This document shows, in pieces, positions 58,975 through 64,000 of a stretch of DNA of 64,000 bases. How positions within the stretch are numbered: the stretch's first letter is position 1; every line of letters begins with the position of its first letter. The position numbers and the translations under genes are program-made. This DNA is from Flavobacteriaceae bacterium (lineage in GTDB: Bacteria > Bacteroidota > Bacteroidia > Flavobacteriales > Flavobacteriaceae), in the NCBI GenBank assembly GCA_030683815.1, contig JAUXPJ010000019.1:62001-126000 (forward strand), read 5' to 3'. Under the pieces are notes generated by a model, which worked only from the letters and a program-made list of their open reading frames with translations, had not been told where the DNA came from and did not search any database.

Positions 58975-61404
58975 TTATTTTCTTTCAGTAATTCTCAATA
59001 AATCTCCAAAAACACCTCTGGCAGTAACTTCTGCACCTGCGCCGGCTCCCTGAATAACAATAGGATTATCGCCATAGGACTCTGTATAAATTTCAAATAT
59101 AGAATCAGCGTTATTAAGTTGACCCAACGAACTTTTTTCAGGGACGGATATAAGTTTAACTTCTAAACTTCCTTTATTTTTTTGTAAATCTCCCGACAAA
59201 TCACCTATATATCTTAACACATGTTTCTCCTTCTGGTCTTCTTTTATTTTTTGATAAACAGGATTTAACTCTTCTATTCTTGATAAAAAATCTTGTGTAC
59301 TTCCATCTTGTAAAAAAGTTGGAATTAAATTATGTATTTTTATTTCATTAAATTCATTTTGCAAATCCAATTCTCTAGCTAAAATCAATAATTTTCGAGC
59401 TACATCATTTCCGCATAAATCTTCTCTTGGATCAGGTTCTGTGAGTCCTTTGTCAATGGCTTGTTGTAATATGTCGCTAAAAGAACTTTCTGATTCAGAA
59501 AAATGATTGAATATAAAACTTAAAGATCCGGAAAAAACGCCTTTAATACGAGTAATATTTTCGCCTGATGCATGTAATATGCTGATCGTATCAATCAATG
59601 GCAAACCCGCGCCAACATTGGTTTCATACAAATAATTTTTATTATTCTTTTTAAGCGATTCTCTTAATTTTTTGTAGCTCAAATAACTTTGGGTGTTGGC
59701 TGTTTTATTGGATGAAATTAAATCAAATCCATTTTCTGCCAATGGAATATAATTATCAATAAAAGTGGTGCTGGCAGTATTGTCTATTGCAATTAAGTTT
59801 TCAAAATGATATTTTTGGGCAAACTCAATAATGTCAGTAATGCTTTTGTTGTTATTGGGAGCTTTGTCATATTCCTCTTTCCAATTATTGGATATACCCT
59901 CTTTATTTAAAAGAATTTTTTTAGATCCTGCAATGGCAAATATGTTTAAATTGATTTCTTTTCTTTTAAGGATTTTATTTTTTGAATTAAGGATTTGATT
60001 TATTAATGCTCCCCCAACAGTTCCCTTTCCAAAAATGGCAATATTTATGTTTTTTGAAATTCCAAAAATCTGTGAGTGGATAACATTTATTGCTTTATTT
60101 ACATTTTTATTATCGATAACTAAACCGATATTATTTCCGTTTAATGTGTTGTTAATTAATAATATATCAATATTGTTTTTTATTAATGCATTAAATGAGG
60201 ATGAAAAATTGTTAATATTCTGACCAATAATTGTAATAACAGAAACTTCTTTTTTTGAAATAATTGAACTGATGTCTTTTGTTTGAATTTCGGCTTGAAA
60301 TTCTATTTTTAAAGCGTTAACGGCTGTTTTAATATCCTTCTCTGAGATAATAAAACCAATACTTCTTTCTGATGAACCTTGTGAAATGACACTAACACTT
60401 ATTTTATTCTGGTTCATAGTAGAAAATATACGCGCGTCAATCCCTTTTTTTCCAAGTAATCCTTTGCCTTCAATATTAATAAATCCTATTTCATTTTGAA
60501 CGGAAATAGATTTTACTTCTTTGTCAGTTATTTCATTATTAATTAAAGTTCCTGTGGTATTAGGGTTATAGGTATTTAAGATGCGCAATGGAATGTTCTT
60601 TTCTACTAATGGAATGATGGTTTTTGCGTGTAAGATAGAAGCACCGAAGCTTGCCAACTCGCTAGCTTCATTAAAATTTAATTGTTCAATTATTTTAGCA
60701 TCACTTACCTGATCTGGATTAGCGGTGTATATTCCATCTATATGTGTATAATTCTGTACTTCAGAAGCATTTAAGTATTTTGCAATTAAAGAAGCTGAAT
60801 AATTACTTCCATTTCTTCCTAAAGTGGTGGTTTGACTGTTTTTATTCGATGTAATAAAACCGGTAACTATTGGAATAGTTTCTTCATCAAAAGAATTGTA
60901 CCAATTTACAGTATTGGTTTTGGAAAGCTCATCTAGGATTTGTGCGTTTCCAAAATTATCGTTTGTTTTTAAGAAATCTCTACTGTCAATGGTGTTGCTT
61001 TTTATTCCATTTTGGTTTAATAAAGAAGCAATCATTTTTGCGGCTAATAATTCTCCTTGTGCCAAAACCAAATCTTTTACTTTTAAACTATAATCTTCTA
61101 CCAATTTTACCCCTTCAAATGTTTTTTCCAATAAGGTAAATTCTTTATGGTAATCGATATTTTTATTGGGTTCTATTTGATATTCTTTAAATGCTTTCCA
61201 TTCAACGGCATAATCTTCTCCATTTTTTGCTTTATCCAAAATGAGTTCCAAACAGTCTGTTGCATTTCCTCTGGCAGATAAAACAATTATCATCTTCTCT
61301 TTTGAATTTATTTTGTTTTTAATGATAGCAATAACGTTTTCTATTCCCTGACCATTGGCTAGGGATTTCCCTCCGAACTTGATTATTTTCATTTCTTCTC
61401 TCAT
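58975..61404 (-). CDS. thrA: Bifunctional aspartate kinase/homoserine dehydrogenase I
   Basis: First and third steps of the aspartate pathway to homoserine. 809 residues: kinase domain (about 5-285, IIKFGGKSLANG, TLGRNGSNYSA, HIDGIYTANP), two ACT-type regulatory domains (about 305-445), and the NAD(P)-binding homoserine dehydrogenase domain (about 455-805, NIAIFGKGTVGGALINQI, SSNKTANTQ, YETNVGAGLPLIDT, GLTEPDPREDLCGNDVARKLLILARE). Its start ATG overlaps the metX stop. A start at Met5 (61392) is also possible. Being in an operon with metX and metY, it supplies homoserine for methionine. Confidence 0.96.
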   Translation of the reverse strand: MREEMKIIKFGGKSLANGQGIENVIAIIKNKINSKEKMIIVLSARGNATDCLELILDKAKNGEDYAVEWKAFKEYQIEPNKNIDYHKEFTLLEKTFEGVKLVEDYSLKVKDLVLAQGELLAAKMIASLLNQNGIKSNTIDSRDFLKTNDNFGNAQILDELSKTNTVNWYNSFDEETIPIVTGFITSNKNSQTTTLGRNGSNYSASLIAKYLNASEVQNYTHIDGIYTANPDQVSDAKIIEQLNFNEASELASFGASILHAKTIIPLVEKNIPLRILNTYNPNTTGTLINNEITDKEVKSISVQNEIGFINIEGKGLLGKKGIDARIFSTMNQNKISVSVISQGSSERSIGFIISEKDIKTAVNALKIEFQAEIQTKDISSIISKKEVSVITIIGQNINNFSSSFNALIKNNIDILLINNTLNGNNIGLVIDNKNVNKAINVIHSQIFGISKNINIAIFGKGTVGGALINQILNSKNKILKRKEINLNIFAIAGSKKILLNKEGISNNWKEEYDKAPNNNKSITDIIEFAQKYHFENLIAIDNTASTTFIDNYIPLAENGFDLISSNKTANTQSYLSYKKLRESLKKNNKNYLYETNVGAGLPLIDTISILHASGENITRIKGVFSGSLSFIFNHFSESESSFSDILQQAIDKGLTEPDPREDLCGNDVARKLLILARELDLQNEFNEIKIHNLIPTFLQDGSTQDFLSRIEELNPVYQKIKEDQKEKHVLRYIGDLSGDLQKNKGSLEVKLISVPEKSSLGQLNNADSIFEIYTESYGDNPIVIQGAGAGAEVTARGVFGDLLRITERK

Positions 61405-62369
61405 TTGAAAATTGGTTTTAAAAATTGTGTAAGTTGTTCGTTCTCAATTAAAAAGGCATCATGTCCGTGGATAGATTTTATCTCACGGTATTGGTTCTTT
61501 ATTTCTAGTTGATTTAAAAGTAATTTTGTTTTTATATTTTCCTCTTTTACAAAAAATAAGTCACTATCCACAGCTATTTGAACAATAATAGATTTTATAG
61601 GTTTAACTATTTCTTCAAAAGACAACTTTTCTGTAGTTATATCAACTGTGGTCAGTAAATGATTCATCATTAAATAGGCATTTATATCAAACCTGTTTTT
61701 TAGTTTTTCTCCATGGTGATCTAACCAAGACTCTACATTAAATTGCTTATTAGATGCTGTTTTTGTTCGATTAAATTTTTGGGTGAAAGACTTAGGTGTT
61801 CTATAAAATAACATCGCCATTTTTCTGGCATCTTGTAAAGGATTTTTTGAGTTTTTTAATAGTTGATCTTGGACATAATTATGTCCAATAATCCAATCTG
61901 TAGATTTCCAATCAGAAGCAATAGGAATAAGGTATTTTATGAAGCCAGGCTGTAAAGCAGCCATTTCCCATGCAATGCCTCCGCCAAGTGATCCGCCTAT
62001 TACTGCGTATAATTCGGTAACTCCCATTTCATTTAAAACTAAATTGAATATCGCGGCTATATCTTTTGCCGTAAAATCATTGTAATTTTTTATGCTCTTT
62101 GCTTGATATCCATTTCCATGAATATTAAAAGCAACAACAGTGTATTTGTCAGTATTAATAACTTTGTTTTTACCAACAATTTCATTCCACCAACCTTTTT
62201 TTTTGCTGAGAAGATCTGAATTTCCCGTCAAAGCGTGGTTAACCACAACTACCGGAGCAGTATGTAATTTTTTGCCAAATACTTGATAAGTGGTATCCAA
62301 ATTTTCATATTGGATACCACTATATGTTGTGTATTTTTTTAAATTACAGGTTATTAATCTATTCATCAT
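61401..62369 (-). CDS. metX: Homoserine O-acetyltransferase family protein
   Basis: Alpha/beta-hydrolase-fold acyltransferase activating homoserine for sulfhydrylation. 322 residues with VVVNHALTGNSDL, nucleophile Ser in VIGGSLGGGIAWEMA, Asp in VDSDLFF and His in SIHGHDAFLIE. It is shorter than classical MetX (about 370) because the lid domain is compact, as in other Flavobacteriia. The start may be either of two adjacent ATGs. It lies between metY and thrA on the same strand. Confidence 0.9.
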   Translation of the reverse strand: MMNRLITCNLKKYTTYSGIQYENLDTTYQVFGKKLHTAPVVVVNHALTGNSDLLSKKKGWWNEIVGKNKVINTDKYTVVAFNIHGNGYQAKSIKNYNDFTAKDIAAIFNLVLNEMGVTELYAVIGGSLGGGIAWEMAALQPGFIKYLIPIASDWKSTDWIIGHNYVQDQLLKNSKNPLQDARKMAMLFYRTPKSFTQKFNRTKTASNKQFNVESWLDHHGEKLKNRFDINAYLMMNHLLTTVDITTEKLSFEEIVKPIKSIIVQIAVDSDLFFVKEENIKTKLLLNQLEIKNQYREIKSIHGHDAFLIENEQLTQFLKPIFK

Positions 62370-62434: not shown

Positions 62435-63709
62435 TTATATTTGTTTTAATGCTTGGTCAATATCTTCTTTCAAGTCTTCAATATCTTCTAATCCAACCGA
62501 TAGTCGGATTAAATCTTGGCTTACTCCTGCAGTTAATTGTTGCTCTTCAGTAAGTTGTTGATGAGTAGTGCTTGCCGGATGAATTATCAAAGATTTGGTA
62601 TCTCCAATATTTGCAAGTAAAGAGAATATTTTTGTTGAATCAGTCAGTTTCTTAGCTGCTTCAAATCCGCCTTTCAAACCAAACGTAACCACACCACTTT
62701 GTCCGCTTGGCAAGTATTTCTGTGCCAATTCAAGGTATCTGCTGCTTTTTAATCCGGGATAGTTTACCCATGAAATTTCATCTTTCGTTTGTAACCATTG
62801 AGCGAATTTTAAGGCATTTTCCGAATGTTTCTTTATTCGAACTTCCAAAGTTTCTAAACCTTGAATAATTTGAAAGGCGTTGTACGGACTTAAAGCCGCT
62901 CCGAAATCTCTTAAACCTTCTATTCTCAGTTTTACAATAAATGCTGTTTCGCCTAAAGTTTCCGAGTATTTTAGCCCATGATAACCTTTGGAAGGCTCAG
63001 TGAATTCTGTAAATTTTCCACTTGTCCAATCAAAAGTTCCAGCATCAATAACTACACCTCCCAAAGATGTTCCTTGACCTCCAATAAATTTTGTTAAGGA
63101 GTGAATTACAATATTGGCTCCATATTTTATAGGATTCAATAGCGCAGGAGTAGCAACTGTGTTATCAACAATCAAAGGAATCTTATTTGCTTTTGCAATT
63201 TTTGCGATTTCTTCGATATCAAGAACATCTAATTTTGGATTTCCAAGAGACTCTATAAAAATAGCTTTGGTATTCTCTTGAATTGAATTTTGAAAGTTTT
63301 CTACATTATCAGCATTCACAAAACTTGTTTCTATCCCTAATCTTGGTAAAGTTACATTGAGTAAATTATAGGTTCCTCCATATAAACTGCTCGAAGAAAC
63401 AATATGATCACCAGATTTAAATAAGGTTAAAAAAGTTGTGGCAATTGCGGAAGTACCAGATGCAAAAACTACCGCACCAATTCCACCCTCAATAACTGCC
63501 AATCTTTTTTCAAGAATATCATTGGTTGGATTGTTTAATCTGGTATAAATAAATCCAAATTCTTTTAATCCAAATAAATTGGCAGCATGGTCAGTATCGT
63601 TAAATACATATGAGGTAGTTTGATAAATTGGAACAGCTCTCGTTCCTTGGGTTAATTTTGTGTCGTGCCCTGCATGCAGAGCGTTTGTTGTTTTAGTTAA
63701 ATTTGACAT
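62435..63709 (-). CDS. metY: O-acetylhomoserine sulfhydrylase (aminocarboxypropyltransferase)
   Basis: PLP enzyme that makes homocysteine from O-acetylhomoserine and sulfide. 424 residues: ALHAGHDTKLTQGTRAVPIYQTTSYVF, FIYTRLNNPTNDILEKRLA, SSSLYGGTYNLL, DNTVATPALLNP and the PLP-Lys in VIHSLTKFIGGQGTSLGG. First gene of metY-metX-thrA, behind a Cys/Met-rich leader and terminator. Confidence 0.96.
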   Translation of the reverse strand: MSNLTKTTNALHAGHDTKLTQGTRAVPIYQTTSYVFNDTDHAANLFGLKEFGFIYTRLNNPTNDILEKRLAVIEGGIGAVVFASGTSAIATTFLTLFKSGDHIVSSSSLYGGTYNLLNVTLPRLGIETSFVNADNVENFQNSIQENTKAIFIESLGNPKLDVLDIEEIAKIAKANKIPLIVDNTVATPALLNPIKYGANIVIHSLTKFIGGQGTSLGGVVIDAGTFDWTSGKFTEFTEPSKGYHGLKYSETLGETAFIVKLRIEGLRDFGAALSPYNAFQIIQGLETLEVRIKKHSENALKFAQWLQTKDEISWVNYPGLKSSRYLELAQKYLPSGQSGVVTFGLKGGFEAAKKLTDSTKIFSLLANIGDTKSLIIHPASTTHQQLTEEQQLTAGVSQDLIRLSVGLEDIEDLKEDIDQALKQI

Positions 63710-63737: not shown

Positions 63738-63779
63738 ATAAAAAAAGTCCCTTTGGTTAGGTATTACCGAAGGGACTTT
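63738..63779 (-). terminator. Attenuator terminator of the metY-metX-thrA operon
   Basis: A perfect 10-bp stem (63744-63753/63770-63779, aaagtccctt/aagggacttt), followed on the minus strand by TTTTTTTATT and 35 bases before metY. The loop contains GGTAATACC (minus strand, 63760-63768), exactly complementary over nine bases to GGTATTACC (63814-63822) at codons 26-29 of the leader peptide. Confidence 0.9.
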
Positions 63780-63805
63780 AAAACTGCTGTTAGTTTATAT
63801 ATCTT

Positions 63806-63898
63806 TCAATTTGGGTAATACCATAGCATTATGTAGATTATCATGCACATATACATTTGTTGGAAGCAACAACATACTATGGTTTGGTTATTTATCAT
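63806..63898 (-). CDS. Cys/Met-rich leader peptide of the metY operon
   Basis: A 30-codon frame starting at 63898. It begins MINNQTIVCCCF, continues QQMYMCMIIYIM and ends LWYYPN. Apart from the start it has four Met (15, 17, 19, 24) and four Cys (9, 10, 11, 18), both rare residues. A terminator and a sulfhydrylase gene follow, so it reads as a ribosome-mediated attenuator answering to charged tRNA-Cys and/or tRNA-Met. No SAM riboswitch is required. I see no TAnnTTTG box in the 25 bases between its start and the next terminator upstream. Confidence 0.88.
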   Translation of the reverse strand: MINNQTIVCCCFQQMYMCMIIYIMLWYYPN

Positions 63899-63915: not shown

Positions 63916-63948
63916 CAAAAAAAAAGCCTTTGCAATATGCAAAGGCTT
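63916..63948 (-). terminator. Upstream terminator, only about 25 bases before the Cys/Met leader
   Basis: A perfect 11-bp stem (63924-63934/63938-63948, aagcctttgca/tgcaaaggctt) followed on the minus strand by nine T. It ends a transcript entering from beyond the window edge, or is the first of two attenuators in series. Confidence 0.88.
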
Positions 63949-63967
63949 CGTTAATTATATTTTTTGT

Positions 63968-64000
63968 CTAGTTTATACAATTATGGCCTTCGCGTAAATT
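63968..64000 (-). other. Open frame end at the window edge, possible second leader peptide
   Basis: On the minus strand the frame NLREGHNCIN ends in TAG at 63968-63970, 19 bases before the terminator stem. Its GAAGGC (63991-63986) can pair with GCCTTT in the terminator's 5' arm, the same arrangement as in the his and metY leaders. The start lies outside the window, so it could equally be the end of an ordinary gene. Confidence 0.35.

Follow-up and report, generated by a model that had tools for sequence, protein, structure and literature searches.

Near one end of the window (the whole 64-kb stretch of DNA analyzed here) lies a minus-strand gene cluster, metY–metX–thrA, that is preceded by two short open reading frames (ORFs), each followed by a predicted terminator. 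The elements, in the order leader 1, terminator 1, leader 2, terminator 2, metY, metX-like gene, and thrA, are as follows:

64044-63973 in window numbering (L004:2045-1974), minus strand: leader 1 ORF, MKKQTTNMACMMCKEIYAKAIIV, with three internal Met and two Cys codons
63986-63993, minus strand: segment 2 of attenuator 1, GCGAAGGC, which can pair (one G-U among the pairs) with GCCTTTGC in the 5' arm of the terminator that follows; p = 0.007
63923-63949, minus strand: predicted terminator 1, GAAGCCTTTGCATATTGCAAAGGCTTT followed by a T run; GCCTTTGC, which would pair in the antiterminator, is at 63946-63939
63806-63898, minus strand: leader 2 ORF, MINNQTIVCCCFQQMYMCMIIYIMLWYYPN, 30 codons
63814-63822, minus strand: segment 2 of attenuator 2, GGTATTACC, ending about 4-5 nt before the stop codon; p = 0.003
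63744-63779, minus strand: predicted terminator 2, 10 bp, AAAGTCCCTT...AAGGGACTTT plus a T run; segment 3, GGTAATACC, at 63768-63760
62435-63709, minus strand: metY, O-acetylhomoserine/O-acetylserine sulfhydrylase family (TIGR01326, 644 bits, cut-off 495)
61401-62369, minus strand: metX-like homoserine O-acetyltransferase (best NCBIfam match TIGR01392, 194 bits against a cut-off of 500, far under the curated cut-offs for the MetX families; substrate assignment putative)
58975-61404, minus strand: thrA, fused aspartate kinase/homoserine dehydrogenase (NF006959, 747 bits, cut-off 726)

The window contains 291 bases upstream of metY, and the last 28 bases of leader 1 (63973-64000) alone fall inside it; the remainder lies past the window edge and was read from L004, the contig sequence that extends beyond that edge. 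The sequence TAAATTTG begins 17 nt upstream of the leader 1 ATG and fits the consensus of the Bacteroidetes -7 box, so transcription probably begins close to the start of leader 1, within a few bases of it.

The original prediction described a single attenuator before metY–metX–thrA, made up of a 30-codon ORF with four Cys and four internal Met codons, a 10-bp terminator with a T run, and an exact nine-base complementarity between the end of the ORF and the terminator loop. We located the ORF at 63898-63806, with Cys at codons 9, 10, 11, and 18 and internal Met at codons 15, 17, 19, and 24, and the terminator at 63779-63744, and GGTATTACC (63822-63814) is indeed the exact reverse complement of GGTAATACC (63768-63760) over nine bases. 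Two elements of the description had to be amended. The loop is involved in the pairing, but GGU of GGTAATACC can pair with ACC in the upper stem of the terminator; and leader 2 and terminator 2 stand as described, but another leader and terminator lie just upstream, so that the arrangement is tandem. The pairing between the end of leader 2 and terminator 2 was computed at -13.8 kcal/mol, a value that 300 dinucleotide shuffles never reached (p = 0.003). Within the 64-kb window, no further short ORF containing four or more Met or Cys codons and at least 15% Met/Cys had a scanned terminator within 90 nt downstream.

We compared the regions upstream of metY in two sets of relatives. The first consisted of 80 metY loci, the best 80 of at least 557 relatives by protein similarity and hence biased toward near ones, and the second of 40 upstream regions taken from 246 genomes of the order, 50 of which had metY; the sets partly overlap (L087/L022 and L088/L044 are seemingly the same genomes). 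Units consisting of a leader and a terminator numbered 61 in 38 regions, the window's included, and 23 of these regions had two units. Leader ORFs were picked as the longest ATG ORF of 12–60 amino acids that ended 15–40 nt before a terminator, that is, by position alone, so that Met/Cys content could not bias the choice. All 56 distinct ORFs picked in this way before metY terminators had at least 15% Met plus Cys (median 28%), as against 3 of 23 ORFs picked before control terminators of the same loci, and one of those three (in L079) resembles Flavobacterium's own leader 1, farther upstream. Relative to the large ORFs of the same loci, Cys was enriched 35-fold and Met 17-fold in the leaders, and other residues by no more than 1.4-fold. 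ATG and TGY triplets made up 433 of 1,408 (31%) in the leader frame, compared with 157 of 1,352 (12%) and 51 of 1,352 (4%) in the other frames. The leaders thus display, by frame-specific enrichment, the clustered codons for pathway amino acids in a short ORF that are a hallmark of ribosome-mediated attenuators, and the conservation of Met/Cys codons among relatives that had been anticipated is borne out.

The two amino acids are not equally constant. Internal Met codons were present in 56 of 56 distinct leaders and Cys codons in 52 of 56; Cys was absent from every unit in two of the 38 regions (L120 and L122), and leader 2 of L006 and of L007 contained Met alone. From these counts we infer that the constant signal would be Met, with Cys as a usual yet dispensable second one. 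The exceptions also favor an alternative in which the attenuators sense methionine alone, the Cys codons being neutral passengers or marking a joint shortage under sulfur limitation. We judge this unlikely, while according it real weight, for the enrichment of Cys exceeds that of Met, and Cys codons often stand two or three in a row beside Met, an arrangement that drift would hardly preserve. The sulfhydrylase family makes products on the way to methionine and, for certain members, to cysteine, which could explain the presence of both codon types.

Most leader 3' ends are complementary to the 5' side of their own terminator, usually near the stop codon. In some relatives the complement extends farther into the 5' arm of the terminator, with 12 contiguous pairs in L011; since relatives pair into the 5' arm, we dropped capture of the terminator loop alone. 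Fifteen of the 61 units were removed as near-identical before pairing was tested against swapped and shuffled partners, leaving 46 nonredundant units. The mean pairing energy of a leader end with its own terminator was -12.4 kcal/mol, compared with -8.6 kcal/mol for swapped partners, and 0 of 2,000 permutations equaled the native value. The same held in subsets, with 0 of 5,000 permutations for the 14 units nearest metY and 1 of 5,000 for the 19 leader-1 units. Individually, 33 of the 46 units paired at p ≤ 0.05 against shuffled ends and 13 fell short. Only 8 of the 46 rows had the unit's own terminator as the top-ranked partner, as related units share sequence.

Compensatory changes point in the same direction, and together with the preference for the own terminator they support the expectation that the complement would covary in relatives. 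For leader 2 (14 sequences), 96.8% of the cells of the antiterminator were paired, as against 25%–53% when the partner was slid; 3 of 11 pairs had changed on both sides and 5 of 11 were invariant, and the number of pair types was not unusual (71 of 500 shuffles were as high). The hairpin of terminator 2 was 100% paired in the same number of sequences, with changes on both sides in 4 of 12 pairs. In L008 and L009, one base each of segment 3 had changed along with both of its alternative partners, as expected for two mutually exclusive helices. For leader 1, 80.8% of the antiterminator cells were paired in an alignment that retained all 23 rows, poorly aligned ones included, compared with 29%–48% when slid, and one pair was GC in 14 sequences and AU in 8. 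Paired cells and covariation score beat all shuffles and slides, but in the number of pairs changed on both sides (135 of 500) and of pair types (464 of 500) shuffles often did as well, and end pairs were often broken. Covariation support, as judged from these alignments, is weaker for leader 1 than for leader 2. Pairing and covariation thus point to an antiterminator that involves the leader 3' end and excludes the terminator, and a predicted intrinsic terminator, with compensatory changes in its hairpin, lies between leader ORF and first structural gene.

The leader 1 alignment had a further feature, a TATTGT-like stretch kept just before the stop codon, past segment 2. The C-terminus of the peptide is frequently T/A-I-V at this point, and in L108, L111, and L117 the stretch could lengthen the antiterminator. 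Separately, the region upstream of metY in L053 (1-174) keeps GGTATTGCC and its exact complement GGCAATACC with no clear terminator; the contig ends there.

We also folded the nascent RNAs of the 46 units in silico. When a ribosome was masked at Met or Cys codons that free segment 2, the mean probability of the antiterminator exceeded 0.5 in 45 of 46 units, and segment 2 was left free by 274 of the 355 Met/Cys codons. With the ribosome at the stop codon the antiterminator probability was zero, by construction of the masking. When no ribosome was present the antiterminator was still favored in most units, with a median probability of 0.73. In the completed RNA at equilibrium the terminator beat the antiterminator in nearly all cases (by our reading of the rows, its probability was below 0.5 in 3 of 46), from which it follows that antitermination would have to be kinetic. 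As for a hairpin that would protect segment 2 (1:2), the window fold has one of 10 bp, and a pair of it is lost in L005.

In light of these results we propose, with a probability of about 0.86, that two ribosome-mediated transcription attenuators in series control metY–metX–thrA. What can be read from the DNA is two ORFs with two terminators, an enrichment of Met/Cys codons specific to the leader frame, pairing kept by compensatory changes, a box resembling a promoter, and SAM-I riboswitches at the same place in many relatives; from these we infer leader translation, stalling, readthrough, the identity of the effective amino acid, and the response to amino acids. RNA polymerase would start just 5' of leader 1 and transcribe both units in turn, followed by the genes. 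With methionyl- and cysteinyl-tRNA in good supply, the ribosome would reach the leader stop codon and cover segment 2, allowing the terminator to form. When charged tRNA is short, the ribosome would stall at the upstream Met or Cys codons and leave segment 2 exposed, and the free segment could then capture the nascent 5' arm and loop of the terminator (segment 3) while the 3' arm is still to be synthesized, with readthrough as the outcome. As both terminators must be passed, placing two in series should make basal expression lower and the response steeper. The earlier reading of the locus as Met/Cys leader-peptide attenuation is, in this extended form, supported.

The organism appears to use the same layout elsewhere, for the window contains a leader of similar geometry:

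58100-57982, minus strand: His leader attenuator before hisG, MNLTQLHHHLSHNCSQAIWK, with its terminator at 58012-57982

The end of this leader, CTCAGGCG, can pair with CGTCTGAG of its terminator, one of the pairs being G-U, with a pairing energy of -13.2 kcal/mol. The terminator begins 25 nt past the stop codon and segment 2 ends 8 nt before it; the corresponding distances are 23 and 9 nt for leader 1 and 26 and about 4-5 nt for leader 2. The His leader differs from the metY leaders in being a single unit with His codons. Elsewhere in the genome, a scan of 60 of the 61 ATGATGTGY sites (the metY copy aside) and 30 of the 308 TGYTGYTGY sites yielded one weak Met/Cys leader candidate next to a terminator (L145), and the loci of metF, PF01507, and five PALP-family genes had no Met/Cys leader. 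A further match to the leader region, C17 (76% over 79 query bases), was rejected as just a terminator that, by eye, ends an OmpA-like gene.

The genome also contains a sensor of another kind. SAM-I (S-box) RNAs sense S-adenosylmethionine directly, and the single RF00162 (SAM-I) match in this genome precedes an apparent methionine synthase gene (metH by eye) and metF. A scan of the genome for RF00521 (SAM-II) gave no match, and neither did its control, so that this negative carries no weight. SAM-I occupies the position before metY in many related Flavobacteriia and is absent from it in the window.

A different kind of signal could in principle be read by the same peptides. Peptides with CC and MxM motifs can bind Cu(I), and Cys-rich leaders that respond to copper are known elsewhere, so that the leaders might sense a metal or a thiol-reactive signal (for example, copper on the nascent peptide) rather than tRNA charging. 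We regard this as very improbable: the units precede metY, where relatives have SAM-I (although, the own-genome scan aside, units were sought only there); Met/Cys content is preserved across leaders in which other peptide residues vary; and the His leader in the window has the same layout. We regard as equally improbable a ligand-binding riboswitch with incidental ORFs. Such an RNA might account for the strong fold of the 221-nt leader, which was better than all 200 shuffles (z = -3.94), but an Rfam scan of the window gave no match at gathering level, the SAM riboswitches of Rfam 15 and the T-box included, and a permissive scan gave sub-threshold matches only. Thus neither scan matched a SAM riboswitch at the leader, the fold that the original prediction had named as counting against it if conserved there. 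Moreover, the aligned 3' halves have no conserved core except the terminator, the complement, and the short stretch at the leader 1 stop codon, and Met/Cys enrichment is confined to the leader frame. Finally, AT-rich DNA commonly yields short ORFs and self-complementary stretches, but conservation, in-frame enrichment, and the permutation and compensatory tests reduce to almost nothing the chance that a random AT-rich ORF merely sits before an ordinary terminator.

Returning to attenuation by Met/Cys leaders, we examined how these are distributed relative to SAM-I, which was called by sequence motif except at 17 loci on which Rfam was run. Rfam placed SAM-I just before metY in six of the 17 (L010, L070, L085, L097, L104, and L116). 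By the motif scan, with Rfam confirmation where it was run, nearly every upstream region of the two sets had either SAM-I or a Met/Cys leader. A tree of 82 MetY proteins contained 63 with SAM-I, 17 with leaders, and two with neither (one with only 174 upstream bases); the 40 upstream regions from the order-wide set divided into 21 with a leader, 16 with SAM-I, and three with neither. SAM-I was flagged in 0 of the 38 leader regions, and no counted unit shared a region with it. Left out of the unit count was L123, which has a SAM-I match before metY and a Met/Cys-rich ORF near a weak hairpin. On the MetY tree the leader label changed at least four times, two of the changes being forced by well-supported branches; as the tree was built by a quick method and has three long branches, the number of exchanges is rough.

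With distance from the window's relatives this pattern, as far as upstream sequences can tell, is thinner. In a class-wide sample (105 matching genomes, from which 19 newly taken metY upstream regions were read), 15 regions had neither sensor (one of them having almost no upstream sequence), one was SAM-I-like, and three had leaders. Among the three, L229 repeats L076 (a Crocinitomix pair), and L239 and L254, with two units and one, belong to other families. In 16 of the 38 regions the promoter box TAnnTTTG stood 5–45 nt ahead of the first leader found, compared with 58 of 1,358 background windows and 0 of 23 second leaders. It was absent near the first leader found in the other 22, and in several Flavobacterium the first unit found was leader 2.

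The layout of trp- and his-type attenuators comprises an ORF rich in codons for the product, alternative antiterminator and terminator structures, and the operon. Those of Proteobacteria resemble the window's system in having a codon-rich short ORF, an antiterminator that alternates with an intrinsic terminator, and then the operon. The window's system differs in that it would read two sulfur amino acids by two complete units in series, that it occurs in Bacteroidetes with a promoter-like box almost at the leader start, and that a conserved 1:2 protector hairpin is at most a candidate feature of it. Methionine operons are usually discussed in connection with SAM riboswitches, T-boxes, or repressors. 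Passages of PMC1262725 assign S-boxes to methionine operons, predict Cys leader ORFs before sulfur genes, and describe the cys leaders as being without obvious terminators and the methionine operons of Actinobacteria as being without conserved upstream RNA structures. Polycysteine leader ORFs of mycobacteria (Canestrari 2020, as cited in PMC13236596) likewise place Cys codons before sulfur genes. The mycobacterial case is termed translation attenuation in the text of PMC13236596, whereas the leaders of the window have predicted intrinsic terminators and contain Met codons. As for the tandem form, PMC3641672, in passages that restate the trp case, describes mgtCBR of Salmonella, in which two short ORFs in one leader likewise act in tandem. 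The mgtCBR ORFs sense different signals (ATP and proline) and, as described there, the structures are unlike intrinsic terminators, whereas both ORFs of the window carry Met/Cys and both are followed by predicted intrinsic terminators.

Sensor exchange as such is also already known, as switches between a T-box or riboswitch and a leader peptide before the same gene, for example hisS, are reported in PMC2965389, passages of which mention neither metY nor Met/Cys leaders nor Bacteroidetes. Closest in taxonomy is PMC9723704, which reports "strong clues" of leader peptide attenuation before amino acid biosynthesis operons of Flavobacterium psychrophilum, of the same bacterial family. Passages of it name no metY or Met/Cys leader, and overlap with its tabulated cases is possible. 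Nothing further on Met/Cys leaders came from passages of PMC7366714, PMC2864571, and PMC4833913. Attenuation by Met codons of a leader peptide, at metY or elsewhere, was not found in the literature searched, nor was a Met/Cys leader of metY. That literature consisted mostly of the main texts of open-access papers, so the absence is weak evidence. We conclude that the kind of attenuation is classical and that its tandem form and the exchange of sensors are known, and that the Met/Cys version at metY is apparently new.

These observations incline us, somewhat further toward acceptance than doubt, to a broader proposal: that this is a class of sulfur-amino-acid attenuator without earlier description, in which two leaders in series would read the charging of both Met-tRNA and Cys-tRNA and so gate homocysteine synthesis as an integrated sulfur sensor. 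The class would be common among Flavobacteriales, with scattered cases in the rest of Bacteroidia, and would have been exchanged with SAM-I at metY more than once, with SAM-I in this genome kept on the methyl-transfer branch (metH–metF). If so, tRNA charging would read sulfur entry and S-adenosylmethionine would read methylation in this genome. The presence before one gene, within one bacterial order, of either a metabolite-binding or a translation-reading RNA would amount to a natural experiment on sensor replacement, and an amino-acid attenuator with two like stages would make the purpose of the second stage directly testable. Working attenuation would also imply a coupling of transcription to translation in Bacteroidetes that is tight enough for such control.

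Several individual loci deserve mention. A leader pair like that of the window precedes metY in Crocinitomix and in metagenome-assembled genomes (MAGs) labeled Saprospiraceae or Chlorobiota (L076 and L084, L008, L009, the last three being the MAGs), partly on long branches; transfer of metY together with its attenuators, or misbinning, is possible. In Lutibacter maritimus (L011), metY follows leaders, and a SAM-I riboswitch (L011:5350-5450) separates it from a metX:thrA fusion; in the window no Rfam family was matched between metY and metX. Finally, RF01726 (SAM-II) matches occur in the metY loci L010, L011, L028, L052, L085, L097, and L116, and in L028 and L052 the match adjoins what appears, by eye, to be the start of a divergent metK.
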